Of a DNA stretch of 35,237 nt, positions 1 to 19,094 are shown in pieces. Below the pieces are notes generated by a model. That model made no database searches, was not told where the DNA came from, and was given only the letters and a program-made list of their open reading frames with translations. Every line of letters starts with the position of its first letter. Position 1 is the stretch's first letter. The position numbers and the translations under genes were made by a program. Origin of the DNA: a virus. The stretch spans positions 1-35,237 of the IMG/VR virus record IMGVR_UViG_3300042301_004321, one strand, 5' to 3'.

Positions 1-80
1 TCGCAGCCGGTGAGGTGATCAAGCGTGGAGCCCCTAAGAAGGTGACACCAGACACGACACCAGCCGAGGTGGCTGCTTAA
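1..80 (+). CDS. C-terminal end of an upstream gene (partial)
   Basis: Only the last 25 codons are in the window; the reading frame starts at base 3 and stops with TAA at 78-80. The visible tail (ending ...TTPAEVAA) is rich in Ala, Pro, Thr and Lys, like a flexible C-terminus. Nothing identifies its function. It is followed five bases later by a strong terminator, so it is the last gene of its transcription unit. Whether the frame is truly coding is judged from the terminator context and the absence of internal stops. Confidence 0.6.
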   Translation, partial: AAGEVIKRGAPKKVTPDTTPAEVAA

Positions 81-84
81 TTGT

Positions 85-127
85 CCGTGAGGGGTTGGGT
101 TTTTCACCCACCCCTACGGGCTTTTTT
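85..127 (+). terminator. Rho-independent terminator
   Basis: CCGT/ACGG, AGGGG/CCCCT and TGGGT/ACCCA pair into a 14-bp GC-rich stem with two single-base bulges and a TTTTC loop. Six T residues follow (122-127). It ends the transcript of the gene that stops at 80 and insulates the small-gene region downstream. Confidence 0.88.
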
Positions 128-145
128 ATCACCAACATTATTACA

Positions 146-283
146 ATGAAAAAATTTATTATTGCGGTTGTATTGATCTCATTTTTTACATCATGTTCTG
201 TGGAGATGAAGATCAGACGATTTAAGGCACCCAAACGCCAGGTCTGTATAGTAGGAGACCGTAGAGCGGTTTGGCAAAGGTAA
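146..283 (+). CDS. Small predicted lipoprotein, 45 aa
   Basis: The ATG at 146 begins MKKFIIAVVLISFFTSCS: two lysines, a hydrophobic stretch of about 11 residues, then FTSC, a lipobox-like site with Cys17 as the acylated residue. The mature part is only about 29 residues and is basic. A longer frame opens at 95 but would run through the terminator hairpin, so the ATG at 146 is preferred. No early promoter box is visible just upstream, and the next gene's promoter overlaps its 3' end. Small phage lipoproteins can act in superinfection exclusion or envelope change, but nothing here proves a role. It is probably exported to the envelope of the infected cell. Confidence 0.62.
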   Translation: MKKFIIAVVLISFFTSCSVEMKIRRFKAPKRQVCIVGDRRAVWQR

Positions 284-297
284 GATTGTATCTTTAC
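270..297 (+). promoter_or_regulatory. Early-type promoter P1
   Basis: TTTGGCAAAGG (270-280) followed by TATCTTTAC (289-297). It is a slightly divergent member of the promoter family repeated through this arm, 21 nt before the ATG at 319. Its upstream box lies inside the end of the lipoprotein gene. Confidence 0.6.
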
Positions 298-318
298 GTT
301 AACTAAAAACATTAAATT

Positions 319-534
319 ATGATCAAATTATTTGGTTTTCAAGTGGATTTATTGCAATTTTTTACGGCGTTTTTGTTCGGAGTACGTACGGAGGGTGAAC
401 CCATCAATTTAGAGTACGGCGTTGAGCAACCGAAGCGCACTGTAAGGCCCCAGACGCAGCCAGACCAGTTCAAATGGATGAGTGATCTGAGGGTGAGTTC
501 ACTCCATGGGGTGCAACAAAGAGTTTATTATTAG
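319..534 (+). CDS. Hypothetical protein, 71 aa
   Basis: I do not recognise this protein. It starts at ATG 319 after an A-rich leader and its own promoter copy. The N-terminal ~22 residues (MIKLFGFQVDLLQFFTAFLF) are strongly hydrophobic and could form one membrane helix or a membrane-associated amphipathic helix. The remaining ~50 residues are polar with several Arg and Gln and look unstructured. The promoter of the next gene begins just after its stop. Its position in the string of single-promoter small genes suggests an early host-takeover role, but this is guilt by location only. Confidence 0.6.
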   Translation: MIKLFGFQVDLLQFFTAFLFGVRTEGEPINLEYGVEQPKRTVRPQTQPDQFKWMSDLRVSSLHGVQQRVYY

Positions 535-547
535 AAAATAAATTTGG

Positions 548-574
548 AGGTCAGAGTAATTTTTCGTATTTTTC
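548..574 (+). promoter_or_regulatory. Early-type promoter P2
   Basis: Upstream box AGGTCAGAG (548-556) and -7 box TATTTTTCC (567-575) with the family's 19-nt offset; TTTGG lies just upstream at 543-547. The -7 box is weaker than in its sisters. Distance to the ATG at 607 is 32 nt. Confidence 0.55.
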
Positions 575-606
575 CCACATAAATAAAATTTAAAAAATTA
601 ATTGTT

Positions 607-861
607 ATGAACAAGAAACCGTATTTTAGAGTAGAGTTAACAGAAGAAGACCAGATCCACGTAGAGTGTGATGGTTCGGGTCAAGAATTGATGAATTTGT
701 TTGCAAACGTTATCAACGACAATCCTGATCTGGCTGAAGTGATCACTCTTGCTCTAATGGCTGTTTCCATGAGGAAAGATGAGGAAGCAGGTGTTGAGGG
801 GTTAAGTGAAGATGATGTTCTTAACATGTTGGGTGGTGTGAAGCCAGTTGCGGAGGCGTAG
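607..861 (+). CDS. Hypothetical acidic protein, 84 aa
   Basis: Not recognised. It is an acidic, soluble small protein with no signal peptide or membrane helix. The central part (ELMNLFANVINDNPDLAEVI) reads as amphipathic helix, and the C-terminal third contains an acidic stretch (KDEEAGVEGLSEDDVL). The start at ATG 607 is supported by the A/T-rich leader and an upstream promoter copy. The stop at 861 abuts the next promoter, leaving no room for a shared message without passing that promoter. Confidence 0.68.
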   Translation: MNKKPYFRVELTEEDQIHVECDGSGQELMNLFANVINDNPDLAEVITLALMAVSMRKDEEAGVEGLSEDDVLNMLGGVKPVAEA

Positions 862-862
862 G

Positions 863-890
863 CTGGCGTAGTTCTTTAGTGTACATTTAC
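863..890 (+). promoter_or_regulatory. Early-type promoter P3
   Basis: CTGGCGTAG (863-871) and TACATTTAC (882-890), 19 nt apart box start to box start, 22 nt before ATG 913. It begins two bases after the previous stop codon. Confidence 0.72.
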
Positions 891-912
891 GTTATAAATT
901 AAAATTAAAATT

Positions 913-1305
913 ATGGCTACAAGATCATTGATTGGGATTAATTTAGACAACGGGATTACTAAAATTGTTTACTGCCATTGGGATGGGTATCCATCTGGGG
1001 TGGGTCAGACGCTAATGGAAAATTACACTTCACCTACAAAAGTAGATGCGTTGTTGAGATTGGGTGATTTAAGTACACTGGCTTCAACTCCAGAACAATC
1101 AGTGGCTTACCACCGCGATAAGAAGGAACCGTGGGGGATGGTTGAACCCAGGGAAGTGAATACTAGTGAATTGGGTACCGTAGCCCAAGATTATGGGGTG
1201 GATTACGTGTACACTTATAACGATAATTTCGAATGGGATTGCTCCAGACTGAAGTATGCAGAAGGGGAGCTAGTACCAGTAAAGATAGTAGCCGACGTGG
1301 CTTAA
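913..1305 (+). CDS. Phage protein of the YCHWDGYP family, 130 aa
   Basis: The segment IVYCHWDGYPSGVGQTL (about residues 18-34) matches a family I recall as widespread in phages of many hosts: a short protein starting MATRSLIGI with a Y-C-H-W-D-G-Y-P signature followed by a helical region and a C-terminal Y-x-Y part. No biochemical function is known to me. Here the order is leader strand, signature, then YVYTYNDNFEWDCS near residues 98-111. Length fits the family. The gene has its own promoter and is followed by a terminator, so it is a monocistronic early-type unit. The WD/YC residues suggest a compact fold, not an enzyme with an obvious active site. Confidence 0.82.
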   Translation: MATRSLIGINLDNGITKIVYCHWDGYPSGVGQTLMENYTSPTKVDALLRLGDLSTLASTPEQSVAYHRDKKEPWGMVEPREVNTSELGTVAQDYGVDYVYTYNDNFEWDCSRLKYAEGELVPVKIVADVA

Positions 1306-1339
1306 AAACGGTTCATACTTTTAATTTTTAATGGTTAGA

Positions 1340-1371
1340 GGAGCTGGGTGTCTACCCGGCTCCCTCTTTCT
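1340..1371 (+). terminator. Rho-independent terminator
   Basis: GGAGCTGGGT (1340-1349) pairs with ACCCGGCTCC (1354-1363) around a GTCT loop: 10 bp with one G-T wobble. CTCTTTCT follows. It ends the 913-1305 transcript and lies directly before promoter P4. Confidence 0.8.
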
Positions 1372-1383
1372 ATGCTTATGTGG

Positions 1384-1410
1384 CTGGTCAAGGCTAGCAG
1401 CGTACATTGA
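1384..1410 (+). promoter_or_regulatory. Early-type promoter P4
   Basis: CTGGTCAAG (1384-1392) and TACATTGAT (1403-1411) at the standard 19-nt offset, 19 nt before ATG 1430. It supports the internal ATG over a longer frame opening at 1331. Confidence 0.75.
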
Positions 1411-1429
1411 TGTTATAAAATTAAAAGTT

Positions 1430-1567
1430 ATGATTAAAATTATTAAGAACCTATACGGTTATTTGAGTTGTAAGTACTGTGGTAGAGATTGTGGATCGAC
1501 TGGTTCAGGAATGTCTATTAACGGTATGTGTGAAAGATGTTATGAAAACGGAGGTGATGACGAATAG
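1430..1567 (+). CDS. Small zinc-ribbon-like protein, 45 aa
   Basis: Two cysteine pairs, CKYCGRDC (residues 14-21) and CERC (33-36), are spaced as in a treble-clef or zinc-ribbon knuckle and probably bind one Zn ion. The N-terminus MIKIIKNLYGYL is short and basic, and the C-terminus is acidic (GGDDE). The frame is open upstream to 1331, but that would translate through a terminator and the promoter, so ATG 1430 is chosen. Such tiny zinc proteins in phages may bind nucleic acid or RNA polymerase; the partner here is unknown. Confidence 0.66.
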   Translation: MIKIIKNLYGYLSCKYCGRDCGSTGSGMSINGMCERCYENGGDDE

Positions 1568-1582
1568 TTAAACCTAACGTGG

Positions 1583-1610
1583 CGGGGCAGAGTTCACTGC
1601 GTATATTTAT
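1583..1610 (+). promoter_or_regulatory. Early-type promoter P5
   Basis: CGGGGCAGAG (1583-1592) and TATATTTAT (1602-1610), 19-nt offset, 22 nt before ATG 1633. Confidence 0.75.
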
Positions 1611-1632
1611 AACGTAATTAAATTTAAAACGT

Positions 1633-1848
1633 ATGAATATAAGCGCAGACACTCTCGCATTAATCCGCTCCGAAATTGGAGACTTCACAATATCACAGGT
1701 GGGTGGAAGGATCACACTCAGATTTGGCTTCTGGAAACGCGTCAACCTTTATCAACTTCAAGACATCCTAGGATCTCAAGCGATGGTGTTTGAGGACGAA
1801 ATCGAGGATGACGATTGCCGAACCAGATGGAACTACAAGTTAGCTTAA
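1633..1848 (+). CDS. Hypothetical protein, 71 aa
   Basis: Not recognised. The N-terminal half reads as a helix followed by beta strands (DFTISQVGGRITLRFGF, about residues 22-38), and the C-terminal part is acidic (FEDEIEDDD). No Cys pairs, signal peptide or membrane segment. Start ATG 1633 follows the promoter by the usual distance. It is a single-gene unit: the next promoter begins five bases after its stop. Codon use is less AT-biased than in the virion genes. Confidence 0.65.
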   Translation: MNISADTLALIRSEIGDFTISQVGGRITLRFGFWKRVNLYQLQDILGSQAMVFEDEIEDDDCRTRWNYKLA

Positions 1849-1853
1849 CGTGG

Positions 1854-1881
1854 TTGGGCAGGGCTCACATCGTATATTTAC
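1854..1881 (+). promoter_or_regulatory. Early-type promoter P6
   Basis: TTGGGCAGG (1854-1862) and TATATTTAC (1873-1881), 19-nt offset, 22 nt before ATG 1904. It falls inside a longer open frame starting at 1850, which argues against that upstream start. Confidence 0.78.
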
Positions 1882-1903
1882 ACCGTACTTAAAAATAAAA
1901 GTT

Positions 1904-2185
1904 ATGAACAAAAAAGAAATCAAAAACGCGATTAACAAAGCAGCATATCAGTTTGCTGAGTCACTAGGTTACGAAGTGCATGATGATGGAATGGGTGGAT
2001 CGGTTGCGTTCATCAAACCGGAAACAACAAATTCTGATGACACGATCGAGTGGAGCCGTAGTTACCATGATACATGCGTGTTGAATTGGGCTAGTGATGA
2101 GGCGAAAGCCGACGCCGACAAGATCGACATGCACATGGAGTCGATCATTGACGATCTTAAAGCTCAGTACGTTCCGAAAAAATAA
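1904..2185 (+). CDS. Hypothetical protein, 93 aa
   Basis: Not recognised. A helical, Lys-rich N-terminus (MNKKEIKNAINKAAYQFAES) is followed by a stretch with several Asp and Gly, then SRSYHDTC and a final acidic helix. It looks soluble and globular. ATG 1904 is chosen because the frame upstream contains the promoter. The gene is a single unit between promoter copies P6 and P7. Its GC-richer codons (GCC, GAC, ATC) contrast with the virion genes downstream. Confidence 0.66.
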   Translation: MNKKEIKNAINKAAYQFAESLGYEVHDDGMGGSVAFIKPETTNSDDTIEWSRSYHDTCVLNWASDEAKADADKIDMHMESIIDDLKAQYVPKK

Positions 2186-2196
2186 GCGGAACGTGG

Positions 2197-2224
2197 CTGG
2201 TCAAAGCTATCTGCGTACATTTAC
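2197..2224 (+). promoter_or_regulatory. Early-type promoter P7
   Basis: CTGGTCAAAG (2197-2206) and TACATTTAC (2216-2224), 19-nt offset, 21 nt before ATG 2246. This copy is close to the family consensus. Confidence 0.8.
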
Positions 2225-2245
2225 GACGTACTTAAAATTAAACGT

Positions 2246-2521
2246 ATGAACAGAATAAAAATGATGGCTCTATTGAGCGAAAAGTGGAAGGTGAAGTTCG
2301 TAAGAACGACTGAGGAGTTCAATGGTTCAACAGACGGCATCTGGATGTCTGGTGAGAACGGAGAGACAAACGGTGAAGGATTTGAGCTGTTCGATTATTA
2401 TAATGAAAATTACGATCAGTATGAGTTCGGCGTTCACCACAGTATCAAGGAGTGGGCTGAAAGCAGAGGCTGGTACTTCGAGTGGAACGATCCAGGAACA
2501 ATCATGTTGTGGAAGGATTAA
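2246..2521 (+). CDS. Hypothetical protein, 91 aa
   Basis: Not recognised. It is rich in aromatic and acidic residues: FELFDYYNENYDQYEFGVHH in the middle and WAESRGWYFEWNDPGTIMLW near the end. It resembles small single-domain alpha/beta proteins, with a likely terminal strand pair. Alternative frames overlap it on both strands, but only this one has the promoter-proximal ATG and the spacing shared with its neighbours. Monocistronic. Confidence 0.68.
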   Translation: MNRIKMMALLSEKWKVKFVRTTEEFNGSTDGIWMSGENGETNGEGFELFDYYNENYDQYEFGVHHSIKEWAESRGWYFEWNDPGTIMLWKD

Positions 2522-2528
2522 AGCGAGG

Positions 2529-2556
2529 CGGGTCAAGACCCGCTTCATATATTTAA
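2529..2556 (+). promoter_or_regulatory. Early-type promoter P8 with palindromic upstream box
   Basis: CGGGTCAAG (2529-2537) and TATATTTAA (2548-2556), 19-nt offset. The upstream box lies in an inverted repeat, GCGGGTC-AA-GACCCGC (2528-2543), which could be an operator or the stem of a terminator for the previous gene. Confidence 0.74.
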
Positions 2557-2584
2557 CGTATAATAAAAATTAAAAATAAAAGTT

Positions 2585-2803
2585 ATGAAGCAATTATTAG
2601 ATCGCATTGGGTATTCAGTTGTAGGATTAATGGTATTATTATTCTTAGAAGGGATCGTCACATTAGGTAGTGCATTTAAATTCGAGACGTACAACTGGCT
2701 CGGGTACGTTGCACAAGCAATGCTCATTTACCTAGCCGTATGGCTCGCTAATAAAGCCTACGATGATGAAGCACCTAAGAAAAACCGTCCAACTACGTTC
2801 TAA
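2585..2803 (+). CDS. Small membrane protein with two helices, 72 aa
   Basis: Residues about 9-31 (GYSVVGLMVLLFLEGIVTLG) and about 39-55 (LGYVAQAMLIYLAVWL) are hydrophobic enough to span the membrane. They are linked by a short loop and followed by a charged tail (KAYDDEAPKKNRPTTF). No family recognised. A holin is conceivable from topology, but it sits in the early-promoter region away from the lysin, so an early membrane or exclusion role is equally possible. Start ATG 2585 follows promoter P8. Confidence 0.68.
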   Translation: MKQLLDRIGYSVVGLMVLLFLEGIVTLGSAFKFETYNWLGYVAQAMLIYLAVWLANKAYDDEAPKKNRPTTF

Positions 2804-2808
2804 CGTGG

Positions 2809-2836
2809 TTGGTCATAGTTCGGTTCGTATATTCAC
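2809..2836 (+). promoter_or_regulatory. Early-type promoter P9
   Basis: TTGGTCATAG (2809-2818) and TATATTCAC (2828-2836), 19-nt offset, 18 nt before ATG 2855. Confidence 0.75.
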
Positions 2837-2854
2837 GGTATAAAATTAATAAGT

Positions 2855-3085
2855 ATGAAGCGTAAAAGCAAAACAAACGATCAAATGCTGATCGAGTTAA
2901 TCAAGTCAAATACCCCGATGCAAAATGCATTATTAAGGGAACGTATAGTAACTATAATGAATGCTACAGTGGATAGCATCACCAACACCCCTGAGAGTTG
3001 GAGCAACGGGATAATCCATCCAGGATTGTATCTCGAGTTAAACGATAACGTGAACGAGAAAATCGGCTTTCAACTTAACAGTTAA
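2855..3085 (+). CDS. Hypothetical basic/helical protein, 76 aa
   Basis: Not recognised. It begins MKRKSKTNDQMLIELIKSNT, a basic start leading into a helix, and ends with LYLELNDNVNEKIGFQLNS. No zinc ligands or membrane segment. The first ~50 residues read as helices. The start at 2855 follows promoter P9, and the stop is seven bases before the upstream box of P10. Confidence 0.64.
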   Translation: MKRKSKTNDQMLIELIKSNTPMQNALLRERIVTIMNATVDSITNTPESWSNGIIHPGLYLELNDNVNEKIGFQLNS

Positions 3086-3091
3086 GCGGGG

Positions 3092-3119
3092 CGGGGCAAA
3101 GCCCCGTTCGTATATTTAC
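3092..3119 (+). promoter_or_regulatory. Early-type promoter P10 with palindromic upstream box
   Basis: CGGGGCAAAG (3092-3101) and TATATTTAC (3111-3119), 19-nt offset, 20 nt before ATG 3140. CGGGGC-AAA-GCCCCG (3092-3106) is an inverted repeat covering the upstream box, as in P8. Confidence 0.77.
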
Positions 3120-3139
3120 GTCGTAATAAAAAATAAAAT

Positions 3140-3358
3140 ATGAGCATGTTAAAATTCAATGACGGTGAAACGTTTGATTTAAGTGGGCCATTACGTTTAG
3201 AAAGACGAAAAGATGGACTGTATGTGGTGGGTGAAAACAGAATGATGGCTGTAAATGACGCTCTTGAAGGTAAGAAATACATTGAATTCACTAACTACCA
3301 ACTCGCTCAAATGAGAAAGTGGGATGAGATTGACTTCAGAAACGACGATAGATTATAA
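3140..3358 (+). CDS. Hypothetical protein, 72 aa
   Basis: Not recognised. The first half looks like beta strands with turns (MLKFNDGETFDLSGPLRLER, then KDGLYVVGEN), and the second half is helical (TNYQLAQMRKWDEIDF). A second ATG at 3146 is possible. The downstream gene (3379) lies only 20 nt away with no promoter copy between them, so the two are probably cotranscribed, unlike the single-gene units to the left. Confidence 0.66.
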   Translation: MSMLKFNDGETFDLSGPLRLERRKDGLYVVGENRMMAVNDALEGKKYIEFTNYQLAQMRKWDEIDFRNDDRL

Positions 3359-3378
3359 ATCATTAAACTAATAAAAGT

Positions 3379-3585
3379 ATGTTAACGAAACGAATGAACG
3401 ATTTAGAAAGACAAGCAGACGCGATTGAAGAAGCTGCAGTCAATAAGCAAATTAAGGATACAATCGATGTGAACACCTTAATGAACATGAACGATATGTA
3501 TTACGTAGGCAACCTAGTGGATGTAGATGGTAATGGGTGGGTGACTAAAGCTGAAGCGCAAGCGATATTAAATGAAATAAGCTAA
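3379..3585 (+). CDS. Small protein with one EF-hand-like loop, 68 aa
   Basis: Residues about 49-60 read DVDGNGWVTKAE: Asp at loop positions 1 and 3, Asn at 5, Gly at 6, a hydrophobic at 8 and Glu at 12, the classic Ca-binding EF-hand loop. A helix (KAEAQAILNEI) follows. The preceding part (MLTKRMNDLERQADAIEEAA) is a strong amphipathic helix, likely coiled coil. Only one EF-hand is present, so a dimer would be needed to make the usual pair. No promoter copy precedes it; it likely reads through from the 3140 gene. The Ca-binding role follows from the motif, while the biological function is unknown. Confidence 0.72.
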   Translation: MLTKRMNDLERQADAIEEAAVNKQIKDTIDVNTLMNMNDMYYVGNLVDVDGNGWVTKAEAQAILNEIS

Positions 3586-3649
3586 TAATCAGCCATTAAA
3601 TAAGCTATATAAACGATTATCAAGTACTAACCAATAAAGATATAATAAG

Positions 3650-3823
3650 ATGAAAGTATTAATTAATAATAGTTGGATCGAGCTATCAGTATTTACGGGT
3701 ATAATGTTCGGTATCGCTGAGGCCGAGGGTGAATTACTTATTATGGTGGGTCCGTTTGCCGTGATTATTAAGGCGCGGAAGTTTAAAAAACGCAACCGTA
3801 AGAAGCACCCGAACGAGCTGTAA
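3650..3823 (+). CDS. Small basic membrane-associated protein, 57 aa
   Basis: ATG 3650 to TAA 3821-3823 encodes MKVLINNSWIELSVFTGIMF, a hydrophobic stretch with an EAEGE break, then LLIMVGPFAVIIKARKFKKR and a Lys/Arg/His tail. Two short hydrophobic segments with a strongly basic C-terminus suggest a small membrane protein with a cytoplasmic basic tail. An A-rich leader precedes it (AATAAAGATATAATAAG), with no promoter copy of its own, so it is probably the last gene of the 3140-3823 unit. An 85-codon minus-strand frame covers the same bases but lacks context. Confidence 0.6.
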   Translation: MKVLINNSWIELSVFTGIMFGIAEAEGELLIMVGPFAVIIKARKFKKRNRKKHPNEL

Positions 3824-3855
3824 CGGGCACCCGGGCAACCGGGCACTCGGGCGCG
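3824..3855. repeat. Four 8-bp tandem repeats (CGGGCANN)
   Basis: CGGGCACC, CGGGCAAC, CGGGCACT and CGGGCGCG follow each other without gap, starting immediately after the stop codon of the 57-aa gene. They are strikingly GC-rich for this phage. CCCGGG and CCGGG inside allow local pairing. Function is unknown: possibly a terminator-like structure, a protein-binding array or slipped-strand expansion. Confidence 0.75.
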
Positions 3856-3888
3856 TGACCGAAAAACCCTTATAGACGGTATCGAGAC

Positions 3889-3921
3889 GATAGCGGTACA
3901 ATAGCGGTTTGATAGCGAAGT
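3889..3921. repeat. Three 11-bp phased direct repeats (RATAGCGRNNN)
   Basis: GATAGCGGTAC, AATAGCGGTTT and GATAGCGAAGT are spaced exactly 11 bp apart, one helical turn, so the same face of DNA is presented each time. A looser copy, AATTGCGGTCA, follows at 3934. Such phased arrays are typical of binding sites for a protein that oligomerises along DNA (iterons, operators). No coding capacity is apparent. Confidence 0.66.
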
Positions 3922-4127
3922 GCTCCCACGGTAATTGCGGTCAATCGACGGGCCGTAGGCAACGCAAAAAAGCTATGGGTATTCTCAACACAAACACTAT
4001 AAACATGGGCCGACAGGTATATACGAATATATTTGGCTCCAAATCGCGATTCTAATTTCCGAAAATACCCCTTTGTCCCACATTTGCAAATCCCCAAAAA
4101 GAGGTCTTGAACAAAACTCGTTTCAAG

Positions 4128-4153
4128 TGGCAAGGTATATACGTTATATTCAC
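4128..4153 (+). promoter_or_regulatory. Early-type promoter P11
   Basis: TGGCAAGG (4128-4135) and TATATTCAC (4145-4153), the same short spacing as P1 (TGGCAAAGG...TATCTTTAC). It lies 22 nt before ATG 4176, matching other members, and argues for that start over TTG 4107. Confidence 0.6.
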
Positions 4154-4175
4154 CTCAAATGTTAAACCATTAGCC

Positions 4176-4673
4176 ATGATACGCCTCACCCACGATGAAG
4201 CCAAACAATACCGTCAATTAAATCCAGACACCGATTTCAAGTACCACATGAAGTCTGCTATCGGTTACACCCTTACCCCCGATACAAATAATCCAGGCTG
4301 GGAGTCCATCACATATTATGGTGCTAGTTGGATCGATCCTACTCTTACCCCACACAATCCTCATTACGTTTACGTTCTTTGTAACCCATCTATGCCGGGT
4401 ATATGTAAGATTGGGTATACGACGACAACTGTTTATGATCGCGTTCGCCAGCTTAATTTAGCTACGGGTGTGATTACACCATGGTATCCTGTATTTGCAT
4501 ATAAGTGTCCTAACGGCCGTATGTTAGAGAGTGAAGTTCATAATGAACTCGAGAAATTAGGCGCACGGATCAACAAAAAACGTGAGGGTTTCTATATGTC
4601 GTCTGATGATGCGCGTAAAATTATTGAAAAATTAGGTTCTAAATATCAAAATCAATTGAATGAAAAAGATTAA
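4176..4673 (+). CDS. GIY-YIG-superfamily (T5orf172-type) protein, 165 aa
   Basis: Residues ~68-150 carry the T5orf172/MUG113 pattern: YVYVLCNPSMPGICKIGYT, then a DRVRQLN helix with the conserved Arg, ESEVHNEL, and REGFYM near the end. This family belongs to the GIY-YIG nuclease superfamily; the Y-V-Y...K-I-G pair corresponds to the GIY and YIG strands, Arg and Glu to the catalytic positions. Some T5orf172 proteins are endonucleases or nucleic-acid modifiers and others uncharacterised. The first ~60 residues have no clear homology. The start is placed at ATG 4176 because promoter P11 lies inside the longer TTG-start frame from 4107. The stop overlaps the start of the next gene by 14 bases. Confidence 0.8.
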   Translation: MIRLTHDEAKQYRQLNPDTDFKYHMKSAIGYTLTPDTNNPGWESITYYGASWIDPTLTPHNPHYVYVLCNPSMPGICKIGYTTTTVYDRVRQLNLATGVITPWYPVFAYKCPNGRMLESEVHNELEKLGARINKKREGFYMSSDDARKIIEKLGSKYQNQLNEKD

Positions 4674-4854
4674 TTTATTAATGGTTATTATTACTTGGGT
4701 ATTTGCTCACGTATTAGTTTATAACACCCACCACTATTTAGTGGAAATTTATGGTCATTATATCCATTTTATGTTAGCTGTATTTTTACTTGCGGTATAT
4801 GTTCACTATCGTTTGTTTAATCATATGATCTCTAAAATTTCCACATATTTATAG
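4660..4854 (+). CDS. Small membrane protein with two helices, 64 aa
   Basis: Residues about 4-21 (INLLMVIITWVFAHVLVY) and about 35-52 (YIHFMLAVFLLAVYVHY) are hydrophobic. The loop contains several His and Tyr (NTHHYLVEIYGHY). The gene overlaps the T5orf172 gene by 14 bases, suggesting cotranscription and coupled translation. A second ATG at 4681 would shorten it to 57 aa. No family recognised; a holin-like or inner-membrane role is possible, but nothing specific supports it. Confidence 0.58.
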   Translation: MKKINLLMVIITWVFAHVLVYNTHHYLVEIYGHYIHFMLAVFLLAVYVHYRLFNHMISKISTYL

Positions 4855-4881
4855 TATATACGGATAGTTGTAGGGTAGTGG

Positions 4882-4908
4882 CTCTCAAACGGTTTTGACC
4901 AAGGAGAG
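4882..4908. other. Small hairpin, possible weak terminator
   Basis: CTCTC (4882-4886) pairs with GAGAG (4904-4908) around an inner GGT-TTTG-ACC hairpin (4891-4900). There is no U-run after it, so termination is uncertain. It lies between the membrane-protein gene and the late-type motif before 4946. Confidence 0.35.
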
Positions 4909-4929
4909 TTACGTCTTATTTAAACTATT

Positions 4930-4938
4930 TATATTTAT
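4930..4938 (+). promoter_or_regulatory. Late-type motif L1
   Basis: TATATTTAT, seven bases before ATG 4946. It matches the motif repeated before virion genes and has no visible -33 partner. The short distance implies a very short or absent leader. Confidence 0.55.
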
Positions 4939-4945
4939 TGATAGC

Positions 4946-5470
4946 ATGGCAATTTATAAAGTAAAAGCAGAAGATAAAGCAGCGTTGTTAAATCGTTTAG
5001 AAAGACTAAACGTTAATATCAACTCAAACGATTTGAAAAATAAATCTGCATTCCAAAACGGAACTGTTGTAAATTATTTTGAATTGTCTGTTAACGATCC
5101 TGAACAAGAAGAAAAAATTAACTCTATATTAAACCAATCACCCGCAATAAATAAAATAAGCGAAATGGAAAACAAGAAAAAAATGACTAAAGACGAATTA
5201 AAAGAAATGGTTCGTCAAGAATTGCAAGCTGTATTAGCTGAAAAGAAGAAAGTTAAAGACGAAGATAAAAAAGAAAAAATTGATGAGAATGAAGATGTAA
5301 GTGAAAGTTTACTTGCTGATGCTGCTCCAATTTTAGCTACTTTACTTGGTGTAGGTGGTACTTTAGCAGCTTCAATCATTGCTGACTTAAGAAAAGCAAA
5401 AACTCCAGAAGAAAAGAAACAAGTATTACAAAGCGTTGCTAACCAAATCAGCAAATCTAAAGGTTTCTAA
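4946..5470 (+). CDS. Hypothetical, coiled-coil and hydrophobic C-terminal protein, 174 aa
   Basis: Not recognised as a family. Residues ~1-70 form an alpha/beta-like domain (MAIYKVKAEDKAALLNRLER). A highly charged helix follows (TKDELKEMVRQELQAVLAE, ~80-100), of the type often seen in T4-like virion proteins, then a Lys/Glu/Asp-rich linker. Near the end, ADAAPILATLLGVGGTLAAS is a hydrophobic Gly/Ala-rich helix. The frame opens earlier (4895), but the motif at 4930 and the A/T-rich leader favour ATG 4946. A strong terminator follows, making this a single late-type unit. A virion or prohead-core role is a reasonable guess; membrane insertion by the C-terminal helix is possible. Confidence 0.66.
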   Translation: MAIYKVKAEDKAALLNRLERLNVNINSNDLKNKSAFQNGTVVNYFELSVNDPEQEEKINSILNQSPAINKISEMENKKKMTKDELKEMVRQELQAVLAEKKKVKDEDKKEKIDENEDVSESLLADAAPILATLLGVGGTLAASIIADLRKAKTPEEKKQVLQSVANQISKSKGF

Positions 5471-5497
5471 TAACTCCTAGGTAAATTTATAATTATC

Positions 5498-5530
5498 GAG
5501 CGGCTTGTGAAAACAAGTCGCTCTTTCTTT
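5498..5530 (+). terminator. Rho-independent terminator with GAAA loop
   Basis: GAGCGGCTTGT (5498-5508) pairs with ACAAGTCGCTC (5513-5523), 11 bp with one wobble, closed by a GAAA tetraloop and followed by TTTCTTT. Promoter P12 starts right after it. Confidence 0.92.
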
Positions 5531-5532
5531 GG

Positions 5533-5559
5533 CTACACCATTTTCCGTTCGTACATTGA
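5533..5559 (+). promoter_or_regulatory. Early-type promoter P12 (sigma-factor operon)
   Basis: TACATTGAG (5552-5560) preceded by CG, identical in form to P4; TTTGG at 5528-5532 is a plausible upstream box. It lies 20 nt before ATG 5580 and drives the four-gene run that ends with the gp55-like gene. Confidence 0.62.
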
Positions 5560-5579
5560 GTATTAAAAATAATAAAATA

Positions 5580-5747
5580 ATGAGATACAAAGATCTACTA
5601 TTACAAAAAGTTGAGCAGTTGGACATCATGATTAACAACTTGAACCTACTTGCTAGAGAAGGACAAATCAATGATGGTCACTTCGAACAACTAAAAGACC
5701 AAATTGAGGAAATTCGTTATCAAATTTCATTAGAAAACGAAGACTAA
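5580..5747 (+). CDS. Small helical protein, 55 aa
   Basis: MRYKDLLLQKVEQLDIMINN and the remainder (QLKDQIEEIRYQISLENED) form two amphipathic helices with heptad-like hydrophobics, consistent with a helical hairpin or coiled coil. Not recognised. The start is set at ATG 5580 by promoter P12 and the A-rich leader; the frame is open to 5529, but that part carries the promoter. The next gene starts three bases after its stop, so the two are cotranscribed with the late sigma factor. Confidence 0.7.
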   Translation: MRYKDLLLQKVEQLDIMINNLNLLAREGQINDGHFEQLKDQIEEIRYQISLENED

Positions 5748-5750
5748 TAT

Positions 5751-5993
5751 ATGTTAAGTCAAGAATGGCAGGGCATATTACATTGGGTTAAAACAGAATT
5801 AAATGAGCCTCAACGCACTCAACTTCTTACGTTATGTGAGAAGTTTGAGGCGACCCAATTACCTAAGAAAACTTTTTTTAAACTCGAGACGGAAGCCAAA
5901 CCAAAGCGTCAATCTAAAAGAGATATACAGAATAAACTTATATCGGAAAACCCCAACGCAGATAATTTACAAAATATTTTAAAAGGATTTTAA
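5751..5993 (+). CDS. Hypothetical protein in sigma operon, 80 aa
   Basis: Not recognised. Residues 1-40 are helical (MLSQEWQGILHWVKTELNEP, then QRTQLLTLCEKFE), the middle is Lys-rich (PKRQSKRDIQNK), and the end NPNADNLQNILKGF is a short helix. A basic middle and small size would fit a nucleic-acid or RNA-polymerase accessory protein, but that is only suggested by its place before gp55. It is three bases after the previous stop and one base before the next start. Confidence 0.7.
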   Translation: MLSQEWQGILHWVKTELNEPQRTQLLTLCEKFEATQLPKKTFFKLETEAKPKRQSKRDIQNKLISENPNADNLQNILKGF

Positions 5994-5994
5994 T

Positions 5995-6282
5995 ATGGAA
6001 ATAATAATAGGAATATTAGGATTTATAATTATAGTTCTAGGTTTTACAACTTGGAATCTATTAATGAAGAATGAAAAAGCAGAAGATTTAATTAATGAAC
6101 AAGATACGTTAATTAATGATTTAACTTCTAGTGTAATTAAAATAGATGAAGTTATTACACAATTAGACTCATCAGGTGCATTTGAAAACGATGATGAAAT
6201 AGGAACATTTTTTGAACAAATAAAAAGTATGAGAGATACTTTATTAAACAATTTAGATAAAAAAGTAGAAAATAATGTATAA
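5995..6282 (+). CDS. Membrane-anchored coiled-coil protein, 95 aa
   Basis: Residues 2-21 (EIIIGILGFIIIVLGFTTW) form one N-terminal membrane helix. It is followed by a long charged helix (KAEDLINEQDTLINDLTSS) and an acidic stretch SSGAFENDDEIGTFFEQIK. From memory, T4-like marine and Bacteroidetes phages carry a short protein of this plan (hydrophobic anchor, then a coiled coil with a G-x-F-E-x-D-D-E-(I/V)-G-x-F-F motif) next to the late sigma gene. Its role is not known to me. It overlaps the start of the sigma gene by eight bases, so expression is probably coupled. Confidence 0.78.
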   Translation: MEIIIGILGFIIIVLGFTTWNLLMKNEKAEDLINEQDTLINDLTSSVIKIDEVITQLDSSGAFENDDEIGTFFEQIKSMRDTLLNNLDKKVENNV

Positions 6283-7069
6283 CGGATATTACGATAATGA
6301 TAATTTCGATGCTGCTAAGTTTTTAGATGAACAGATGGGTCCTGCTTTAACTAAGAAAGGAAACGTACGTAAACGTAAACCAAAGCAACCTAGAATATAT
6401 TTTACAGAGGATACAGAAAATGCGATTGTTGAATACTTATCACATACTGATCAAGATATTCGTAATAAAATATATAATACCCGTATTGCATATGGTTTTT
6501 ATAAATTAGCAGAAAATATTATCCATACATTTAAGTTTTATTATACTGATATGGATACGATTGAAGATCTAAAACATGAAGTAGTAGCATTTCTTCTTGA
6601 GAAACTCCACCTATATAACCAAGATAAAGGTAAAGCATATTCATATTTCGGTACTATTGCTAAACGTTATTTAATAGTTTACAACCAGAACAACTATAAG
6701 AAACTACAAGAAAAAGTAAATATGGACGAAGTAAACGATGAAAATGATATGTTCGTCGATAATAACATAGGTTTAGATGAGGAGAAGAATGAGCTTAATA
6801 TGTTTTTAGATCAATATGTTGCTTACATTGATAAGCACATTTATACTATATTTCCTAAACAACACGATGCACGAACAGCGGATGCTATTATTGAATTATT
6901 CCGTAAGAGAGAAAATTTAGAAATATTCAATAAAAAAGCATTATACATTTATATTCGTGAAATTACAGATGTTGATACACCTCAAATTACTAAGATCATT
7001 AAAAAATTAGATACAATACGTCTTAAATTATTTAGTGAATTTTATGAACATGGATATATCAAAATGTAA
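6275..7069 (+). CDS. 55: Late-transcription sigma factor, T4 gp55-like, 264 aa
   Basis: The region from IYFTEDTENAIVEYLSHTD (about residues 41-60) through RNKIYNTRIAYGFYKLAENI, HTFKFYYTDMDTIEDLKHE, and SYFGTIAKRYLIVYNQNNYK matches the conserved core of gp55 homologues, the sigma-70-related factor that lets host RNA polymerase read late promoters. This core corresponds to sigma region 2. T4 gp55 is about 185 aa; this one is longer, with a C-terminal extension after ~residue 155 that includes an acidic linker and a helical tail (LEIFNKKALYIYIREITDV). It is the last gene of a unit started by early-type promoter P12, and virion genes preceded by WATATTTAT follow directly, as expected for a late switch. 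In T4, gp33 and gp45 assist; they are not in this window. Confidence 0.9.
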   Translation: MYNGYYDNDNFDAAKFLDEQMGPALTKKGNVRKRKPKQPRIYFTEDTENAIVEYLSHTDQDIRNKIYNTRIAYGFYKLAENIIHTFKFYYTDMDTIEDLKHEVVAFLLEKLHLYNQDKGKAYSYFGTIAKRYLIVYNQNNYKKLQEKVNMDEVNDENDMFVDNNIGLDEEKNELNMFLDQYVAYIDKHIYTIFPKQHDARTADAIIELFRKRENLEIFNKKALYIYIREITDVDTPQITKIIKKLDTIRLKLFSEFYEHGYIKM

Positions 7070-7082
7070 CCTTTATTTTTTT

Positions 7083-7092
7083 CATATTTATA
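7083..7092 (+). promoter_or_regulatory. Late-type motif L2
   Basis: CATATTTATA, 21 nt before ATG 7114, at the head of the hub-wedge block. No -33 box visible. Confidence 0.62.
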
Positions 7093-13210: not shown

Positions 13211-13260
13211 AGGAGTTTCCGGTTGCTATATTTATATGTAGCATAACCGGAAACTCTTTT
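13211..13260 (+). terminator. Strong hairpin terminator with a late promoter motif in its loop
   Basis: GAGTTTCCGGTT (13213-13224) pairs perfectly with AACCGGAAACTC (13245-13256); an inner GCTA/TAGC pair extends it across a 2-nt bulge, leaving a ~10-nt loop. TTTT follows at 13257-13260. The loop contains TATATTTATA. It ends the hub-wedge-lysin transcript while offering a start site for the next unit. Confidence 0.88.
13227..13236 (+). promoter_or_regulatory. Late-type motif L4
   Basis: TATATTTATA lying in the loop of the terminator hairpin, 26 nt before ATG 13263. A transcript started here would carry only the 3' half of the hairpin and so escape termination. Confidence 0.6.
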
Positions 13261-19084: not shown

Positions 19085-19094
19085 TATATTTATA
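19085..19094 (+). promoter_or_regulatory. Late-type motif L5
   Basis: TATATTTATA in the 44-nt gap between the giant gene and the next, 18 nt before ATG 19113. Confidence 0.66.

Follow-up and report, generated by a model that had tools for sequence, protein, structure and literature searches.

This analysis concerns a family of repeated promoter-like sites in IMG/VR virus record IMGVR_UViG_3300042301_004321, whose whole stretch of 35,237 bases is called here the window. The sites are found in a small-gene stretch at 266-5560, where they precede 12 genes and all lie on the + strand (Table 1). The first-pass annotation had described about a dozen copies, one per small gene. We could count 10 good copies and 2 weak ones (P2 and P12), and the rule of one copy per small gene nearly holds, except that genes 3379, 3650, 4660 and 4946 of the same stretch have none. 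In eleven sites the TA of the -7 box and the start codon are 27-37 nucleotides (nt) apart, and in P2 this distance is 40 nt. In P2 the spacing of GGTCA is also one base off the usual one and the -7 box is poor; this copy was missed by the position weight matrix (PWM) scan described below, and P11 scores under its threshold. The -7 box of P5 can also be read as the late-type motif TATTTATA. Finally, P12 stands ahead of the tightly packed genes 5580-7069, which end with a gene for a sigma-factor-like protein.

Table 1. Promoter copies, late-type motifs and sigma-like gene along the window
Feature	Position	Strand	-33 slot	Spacer element	-7 box	Downstream gene or remark
P1	266-297	+	GCGG (266-269)		TATCTTTAC (289-297)	ATG 319
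P2 (weak)	544-575	+	TTGG (544-547)	GGTCA (549-553)	TATTTTTCC (567-575)	ATG 607
P3	859-890	+	TAGG		TACATTTAC (882-890)	ATG 913 (phrog_1987 protein)
P4	1380-1411	+	GTGG	GGTCA	TACATTGAT (1403-1411)	ATG 1430
P5	1579-1610	+	GTGG	GGGCA	TATATTTAT (1602-1610)	ATG 1633
P6	1850-1881	+	GTGG	GGGCA	TATATTTAC (1873-1881)	ATG 1904
P7	2193-2224	+	GTGG	GGTCA	TACATTTAC (2216-2224)	ATG 2246
P8	2525-2556	+	GAGG	GGTCA, within strong hairpin (z -3.5)	TATATTTAA (2548-2556)	ATG 2585
P9	2805-2836	+	GTGG	GGTCA	TATATTCAC (2828-2836)	ATG 2855; hairpin (z -4.7) overlaps upstream part
P10	3088-3119	+	GGGG	GGGCA, within hairpin GGGGCAAAGCCCC (z -3.8)	TATATTTAC (3111-3119)	ATG 3140
P11	4122-4153	+	TTCA	GGCA, shifted one base	TATATTCAC (4145-4153)	ATG 4176
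P12	5529-5560	+	TTGG	no GGNCA box; TTCG	TACATTGAG (5552-5560)	ATG 5580
Late-type TATTTATA	4926-4933	+				before gene 4946
Sigma-factor-like gene	6275-7069	+				264 amino acids (aa); last gene of P12 operon; candidate late sigma
Late-type TATTTATA	7085-7092	+				before gene 7114, first gene past sigma operon
Late-type TATTTATA	13229-13236	+				before gene 13263
Late-type TATTTATA	19087-19094	+				before gene 19113

Over bases 1-20,751 the window is identical to the terminal part of a 132-kb IMG/VR record (IMGVR_UViG_3300042569_002050, hereafter G001), and a 171-kb sister record (G006) is about 74-93% identical in the aligned blocks listed. Among named relatives, the immuto phages of Flavobacterium sp. 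LMO8 come nearest, with 49% identity for the 264-aa sigma-like protein and 44% for a baseplate protein, followed by Microcystis phage Mel-JY01 (40% for each of these proteins). The Flavobacterium phage immuto (MW353175) served as the isolated relative for comparison. Rfam and transfer RNA scans of the whole window gave no match.

We scanned the window for the consensus KGGNCANAG-N7-CGTAYATTTAC, with 60 first-order Markov shuffles of its entire sequence as control. With up to 4 mismatches, 8 sites were found on the + strand and 0 on the - strand, compared to an average of 0.27 and a maximum of 2 in the shuffles; a fifth mismatch adds two sites, 864 (P3) and 4127 (P11), at a level where the shuffles already give 3.3. 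By using an expectation-maximisation motif search on upstream regions, unseeded by the motif of the first-pass annotation, we recovered tTGg.tgGgCAa...t...tTcgTAtATTTAc in G001, a close match to it in G006, and GTTG.tt.tT..aA..ttt.TTC.TATaTTTA in immuto, with log-likelihoods of 354, 371 and 533, respectively, against 90-101 for shuffled sets. Both strands were then scanned at a threshold barely reached by 10 shuffled genomes, which gave 36 forward and 0 reverse sites in G001, 32 and 0 in G006, and 54 and 1 in immuto. Forward sites falling inside called open reading frames (ORFs) were few (7/36, 3/32 and 9/54), and at least two of the seven in G001 (P1 and P4) are covered solely by doubtful ORFs. 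These results bear out the earlier proposal of a true repeated cassette with near-constant geometry, for which a full-genome PWM scan had been suggested as a check. Its extent, which had been given as 270-5559, has to be revised, as the motif set reaches well outside these coordinates.

A looser pattern was present in 13 of 14 whole records, mostly on one strand, and among the first 600 IMG/VR matches to the pattern, 595 code for a protein related to the sigma-like one. We also tried the motif search on 16 shorter loci of other relatives, one of which was skipped for too few regions; these also yielded -7 boxes of the TATATTTA kind, with several likelihoods little above the shuffled ones. When FCL-2, 6H, 11b and phi38:1 were searched for motifs, no convincing promoter motif emerged. 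Another set of promoters nearly identical to one another, made of TTG-N20-TAYCTTTAC-type repeats, is found in Chryseobacterium phage MA9V-3 (PV245944.1), a flavobacterial phage that is apparently unrelated. Among the open PMC papers listed for these subjects, none dealt with early promoter repeats in Flavobacterium or Cellulophaga phages, and none with immuto transcription. To our knowledge, transcription control in Bacteroidota phages is hardly mapped.

Taking the T of TA as position 0, the site is laid out as a -33 slot at -23 to -20, GG(G/T)CA at -17 to -13, TC at -3/-2 and TATATTTA at 0 to +7. The core of the -7 box is nearly invariant in the G001 sites (T 35/36, A 36/36, TT 36/36). The -33 slot reads KTGG in G001 and GTTG in immuto, and within the window GTGG five times and TTGG twice. 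At non-coding sites, TTG occupies the -33 place in 43/45 cases in immuto, 13/29 in G006 and 11/29 in G001; an exact GGNCA is present in 0/45, 15/29 and 15/29, and TCn in 39/45, 15/29 and 17/29, respectively. The excerpted texts of PMC2483708 and PMC6847099 give the Bacteroidota primary-sigma consensus as TTTG / TAnnTTTG, refined to TAHHTTTG with an almost invariant G at -5 in F. johnsoniae. The phage sites share with such promoters the TA and TT of the -7 box as well as the -33 spacing, since TTG-N20-TATATTTA equals the geometry of a host ribosomal RNA (rRNA) promoter; they depart from them by A instead of G at -5, a frequent C at -4, and the TTC and GG(G/T)CA elements, neither of which is mentioned in these excerpts. 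That rRNA promoter, from a Flavobacteriaceae genome, reads TTTG-N20-TATATTTG (cgTATATTTG), thus with the phage-site geometry but G at -5; it is a single example, because among 7 rRNA loci from 5 genomes only one (L225) has more than 273 nt upstream. When both strands of six Flavobacteriaceae genomes were scanned with the reversed pattern as control, TTTG-N18..20-TAHATTTG was in excess (228 vs 76). Judged from these comparisons, the phage sites appear host-like in layout and one base away from the host consensus. Bacteroidota-type sites, TTG-N20-TATATTTG and similar, also stand before several genes of Mel-JY01 (L238, PP395634.1 130001-170000), the true host of which may be a Bacteroidota companion in the Microcystis culture.

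The GG(G/T)CA box deserves separate consideration. The first-pass annotation had taken TGGTCA as the upstream box, differing from TTTG. TTTG is indeed mostly missing in the window, but the true -33 slot sits some 5 nt upstream of that box. We rejected GGNCA as the -33 box itself, as motif finding sets TTG/KTGG 5-6 nt upstream of it at host spacing, and also as a stand-in for that box, because GGNCA and TTG are statistically independent (p 0.71 and 0.27), without any trade-off. We considered whether a phage DNA-binding protein, perhaps with a co-activator, could bind GG(G/T)CA and redirect the host polymerase as T4 MotA/AsiA do, which would make the sites middle-type promoters with a host-like -7 box and a dispensable -33 box. 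The box is strongly conserved in the lineage, absent at the 45 immuto sites and weak in hosts, where spacer box + TAHATTTG is in slight excess (52 vs 29), and the -33 slot is degraded in 10/12 window copies. According to excerpts of PMC2988021, T4 middle promoters likewise combine a host-like -10/-7 element with an upstream box foreign to the host. However, box and TTG are not alternatives here, immuto manages without the box, both box sequence and spacing differ (9 nt between the box end and TA, compared with 12 +/- 1 base pairs between the MotA box and -10 in the same excerpts), and the -33 slot is retained beside the box in many sites, all of which makes this scenario unlikely. GG(G/T)CA is better regarded as an extra, lineage-specific spacer box.

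A second motif search, for which the upstream regions carrying the early motif were removed first, recovered TATTTATA, without -33 box, in G001, G006 and immuto. With a preceding A or C, this motif is strand-biased in the three phages (28/2, 39/2 and 28/3). The T4 late box is TATAAATA, to which TATTTATA is similar. We then compared two gene classes of immuto, namely 21 structural genes chosen by product name and 28 genes of the small-gene cluster (66811-76986). The late motif ([AC]TATTTAT within 70 nt) precedes 9/21 structural genes vs 0/28 small-cluster genes, while the early motif precedes 18/28 small-cluster genes vs 2/21 structural ones. The gene order is also alike, since immuto has an early site before 76986, the sigma-like gene at 78174 and a late-type motif before 78906. 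The succession of early promoter, sigma operon and late motif is thus shared by the present phage and immuto, and the sites, their geometry and strand, their gene classes and their conservation are likewise directly established.

The sigma-like protein matches Sigma70 region 2 with E values of 1.9e-4 (G001) and 1.2e-4 (G006), both under the curated cut-off, and no region 2 match was found in the immuto record; region 4 gave no match in G001, G006 or immuto. A predicted model (mean predicted local distance difference test score 71, predicted template modelling score 0.41) has C-terminal helices beyond region 2. Foldseek returned no match at E <= 0.001; its top 20 hits include many sigma factors, with about 250 columns aligned to full sigma factors at weak scores. 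A PDB sequence search with the protein found nothing credible.

Together, these data suggest, with a probability that we put at about 70%, that the repeats are early-class composite promoters of a large Bacteroidota tailed phage, read by the host primary-sigma polymerase, and that the sigma-like factor of the P12 operon then opens the TATTTATA late promoters. In each site, a -33 TTG-like box, the GG(G/T)CA spacer box and a TTCn extension would precede TATATTTA, itself placed at about -12 to -5. Host RNA polymerase with the Bacteroidota primary sigma would read the site and produce a short transcript, in most cases of one gene, coding for a small protein with a probable role in take-over; P12 would drive the operon that provides the sigma-like factor, and this factor would serve the separate TATTTATA late promoters of structural genes. 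Transcription from the sites, the polymerase that reads them and its timing are predicted from sequence, and the label "early" comes from position, gene class and the arrangement around the sigma operon. Since the sigma-like gene sits behind an early-type promoter, the early class should not need a freshly synthesised phage sigma, and the host polymerase is therefore favoured for this class.

The sites would belong with the T4 early promoters in kind, as a conserved early-class family composed of Bacteroidota elements. T4 early promoters are composite UP/-35/TGn/-10 sites read by the host sigma70 polymerase, as given in excerpts of PMC2988021. As in T4, many near-identical copies on one strand precede small early-region genes, host-like elements are combined with extra conserved bases, one of them just upstream of the -7/-10 box, and a separate late class goes with a phage sigma, here a candidate sigma-like gene. 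Unlike T4 early promoters, the phage sites use Bacteroidota elements (-33 TTG and TATATTTA), carry the GG(G/T)CA spacer box and depart constantly from the host consensus at -5. They resemble the early-class promoters of immuto in the gene order around the sigma-like gene, the -7 box, the spacing and about one copy per small gene; unlike them, immuto has a clear GTTG[CG] -33 box, no GGNCA and more UUCG-loop or T-tract hairpins over the promoter. The predicted code of early and late promoters is testable in a widespread phage group and offers natural promoter parts in many variants.

Several observations weigh against reading by the host polymerase. First, the base at -5 is A in 29/29 non-coding sites of G001, 29/29 of G006 and 39/45 of immuto, and G in 0/29, 0/29 and 0/45. 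Because G is absent from -5, we do not class the sites as plain host-consensus promoters: the -7 box, which had been read earlier as fitting TAnnTTTG, is of the Bacteroidota type except for its last base. Second, the final-A form is not in excess in the host genomes (132 vs 119). Third, TTG is found at -33 in only 2/12 window copies (P2 and P12), and P12, a counterpart of which is present in G006, has no GGNCA box. The constant A at -5 could also indicate that a phage sigma, either the product of 6275-7069 or a virion-borne one, reads the repeated promoters, and the C-terminal helices and long alignment of the sigma-like model fit such a role. However, the unrelated Cellulophaga phage phiST and the Chryseobacterium phage MA9V-3, in which such a sigma was not looked for, lean to A at -5 too, the sigma-like gene is itself behind such a promoter, and the separate TATTTATA class is on offer for that sigma. 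We therefore consider a phage sigma at the repeats very unlikely.

If the host polymerase does read the sites, the sharp question is how an enzyme that prefers G at -5 copes with promoters in which A always stands there. In a separate count of TAHHTTTx upstream of genes, A:G came to 38:1, 40:2 and 39:0, with A/(A+G) of 0.64-0.66 in coding DNA. Cellulophaga phage phiST (A:G 25:4) and MA9V-3 (10:3) show the same lean. We considered an adaptation to phage DNA chemistry, in which 7-deazaguanine (preQ0) would partly replace G and the host-read G would have been bred out, pathway-less relatives keeping TAnnTTTG. QueC- and PTPS-family genes are both present in G001, G006, G002, G003 and immuto, which lean to A, and PTPS alone in phiST and MA9V-3. 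Phage 11b has neither gene and leans to G (A 2, G 9). Mel-JY01 has neither in 190 kb, and of 19 upstream regions inspected, 6 have TAnnTTTG and 1 has TAnnTTTA; the automatic tally of this stretch (A 1, G 0) missed these sites, presumably because the ORF mask covers them. G004 (124 kb, perhaps incomplete), in which neither gene was found, has A 8 and G 0 at the tested locus. The loci of 11 further relatives were also tallied, six of them short on sites. Pooled A:G amounts to 155:14 in 6 phages with the pathway vs 65:51 in 11 without it, related phages being lumped and only the first 50 kb used for some, so that this is no proper test; 10 of the 11 without it have no significant lean. The adaptation would suit most of the phages that have preQ0 genes, but as phi38:2 has both QueC and PTPS and yet reads TATATTTG (A 3, G 4), the correlation has one clear counterexample, and we rejected 7-deazaguanine as the general cause of A at -5. 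Even for the present group such an adaptation is distinctly unlikely; if true, promoter evolution would be tied directly to the modification of phage DNA. More simply, A at -5 may make open complexes less stable and promoter escape quicker. The PTPS (QueD-type) match crosses one TAA in G001 (58533-58958) and G006 (53850-54275), perhaps two frames or pieces joined.

Strong hairpins overlap some copies (P8, P9 and P10), and several in immuto have UUCG loops or T tracts. Such an overlap would allow a gene's terminator to occupy part of the same DNA as the promoter of the following gene. With the promoter sites restricted to those having no more than 60% of their span within called ORFs, z was below -2 in 10/27 promoter sites of G001, 7/28 of G006 and 15/44 of immuto, and in 7/33, 10/49 and 6/39 other upstream regions, respectively. 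The hairpins are thus a trait of a subset, clearer in immuto, and we rejected terminator-promoter fusion as a general rule, given no clear excess over other upstream regions in G001 and G006. The strong folds would also be explained if the repeats acted chiefly as terminators or RNA-processing hairpins of upstream genes instead of promoters, but in G001 and G006 other upstream regions fold almost as well, and most copies are hairpin-free yet retain both the -7 box and an almost constant spacing to the start codon; we hold this reading to be highly improbable. Separately, G+C-rich terminator-like hairpins followed by T-rich DNA are located at window 86-127 and 1340-1372, upstream of P1 and P4.

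The G+C content is about 41% in the small-gene stretch at window 1-4000 and mostly 25-36% in 6000-35237. The small genes of 1-4000 may differ from the rest in origin or in mutational history. Immediately beyond the small gene that closes the first block, at 3822-3860, the window carries G+C-rich repeated CGGGCAC/CGGGCAA units.

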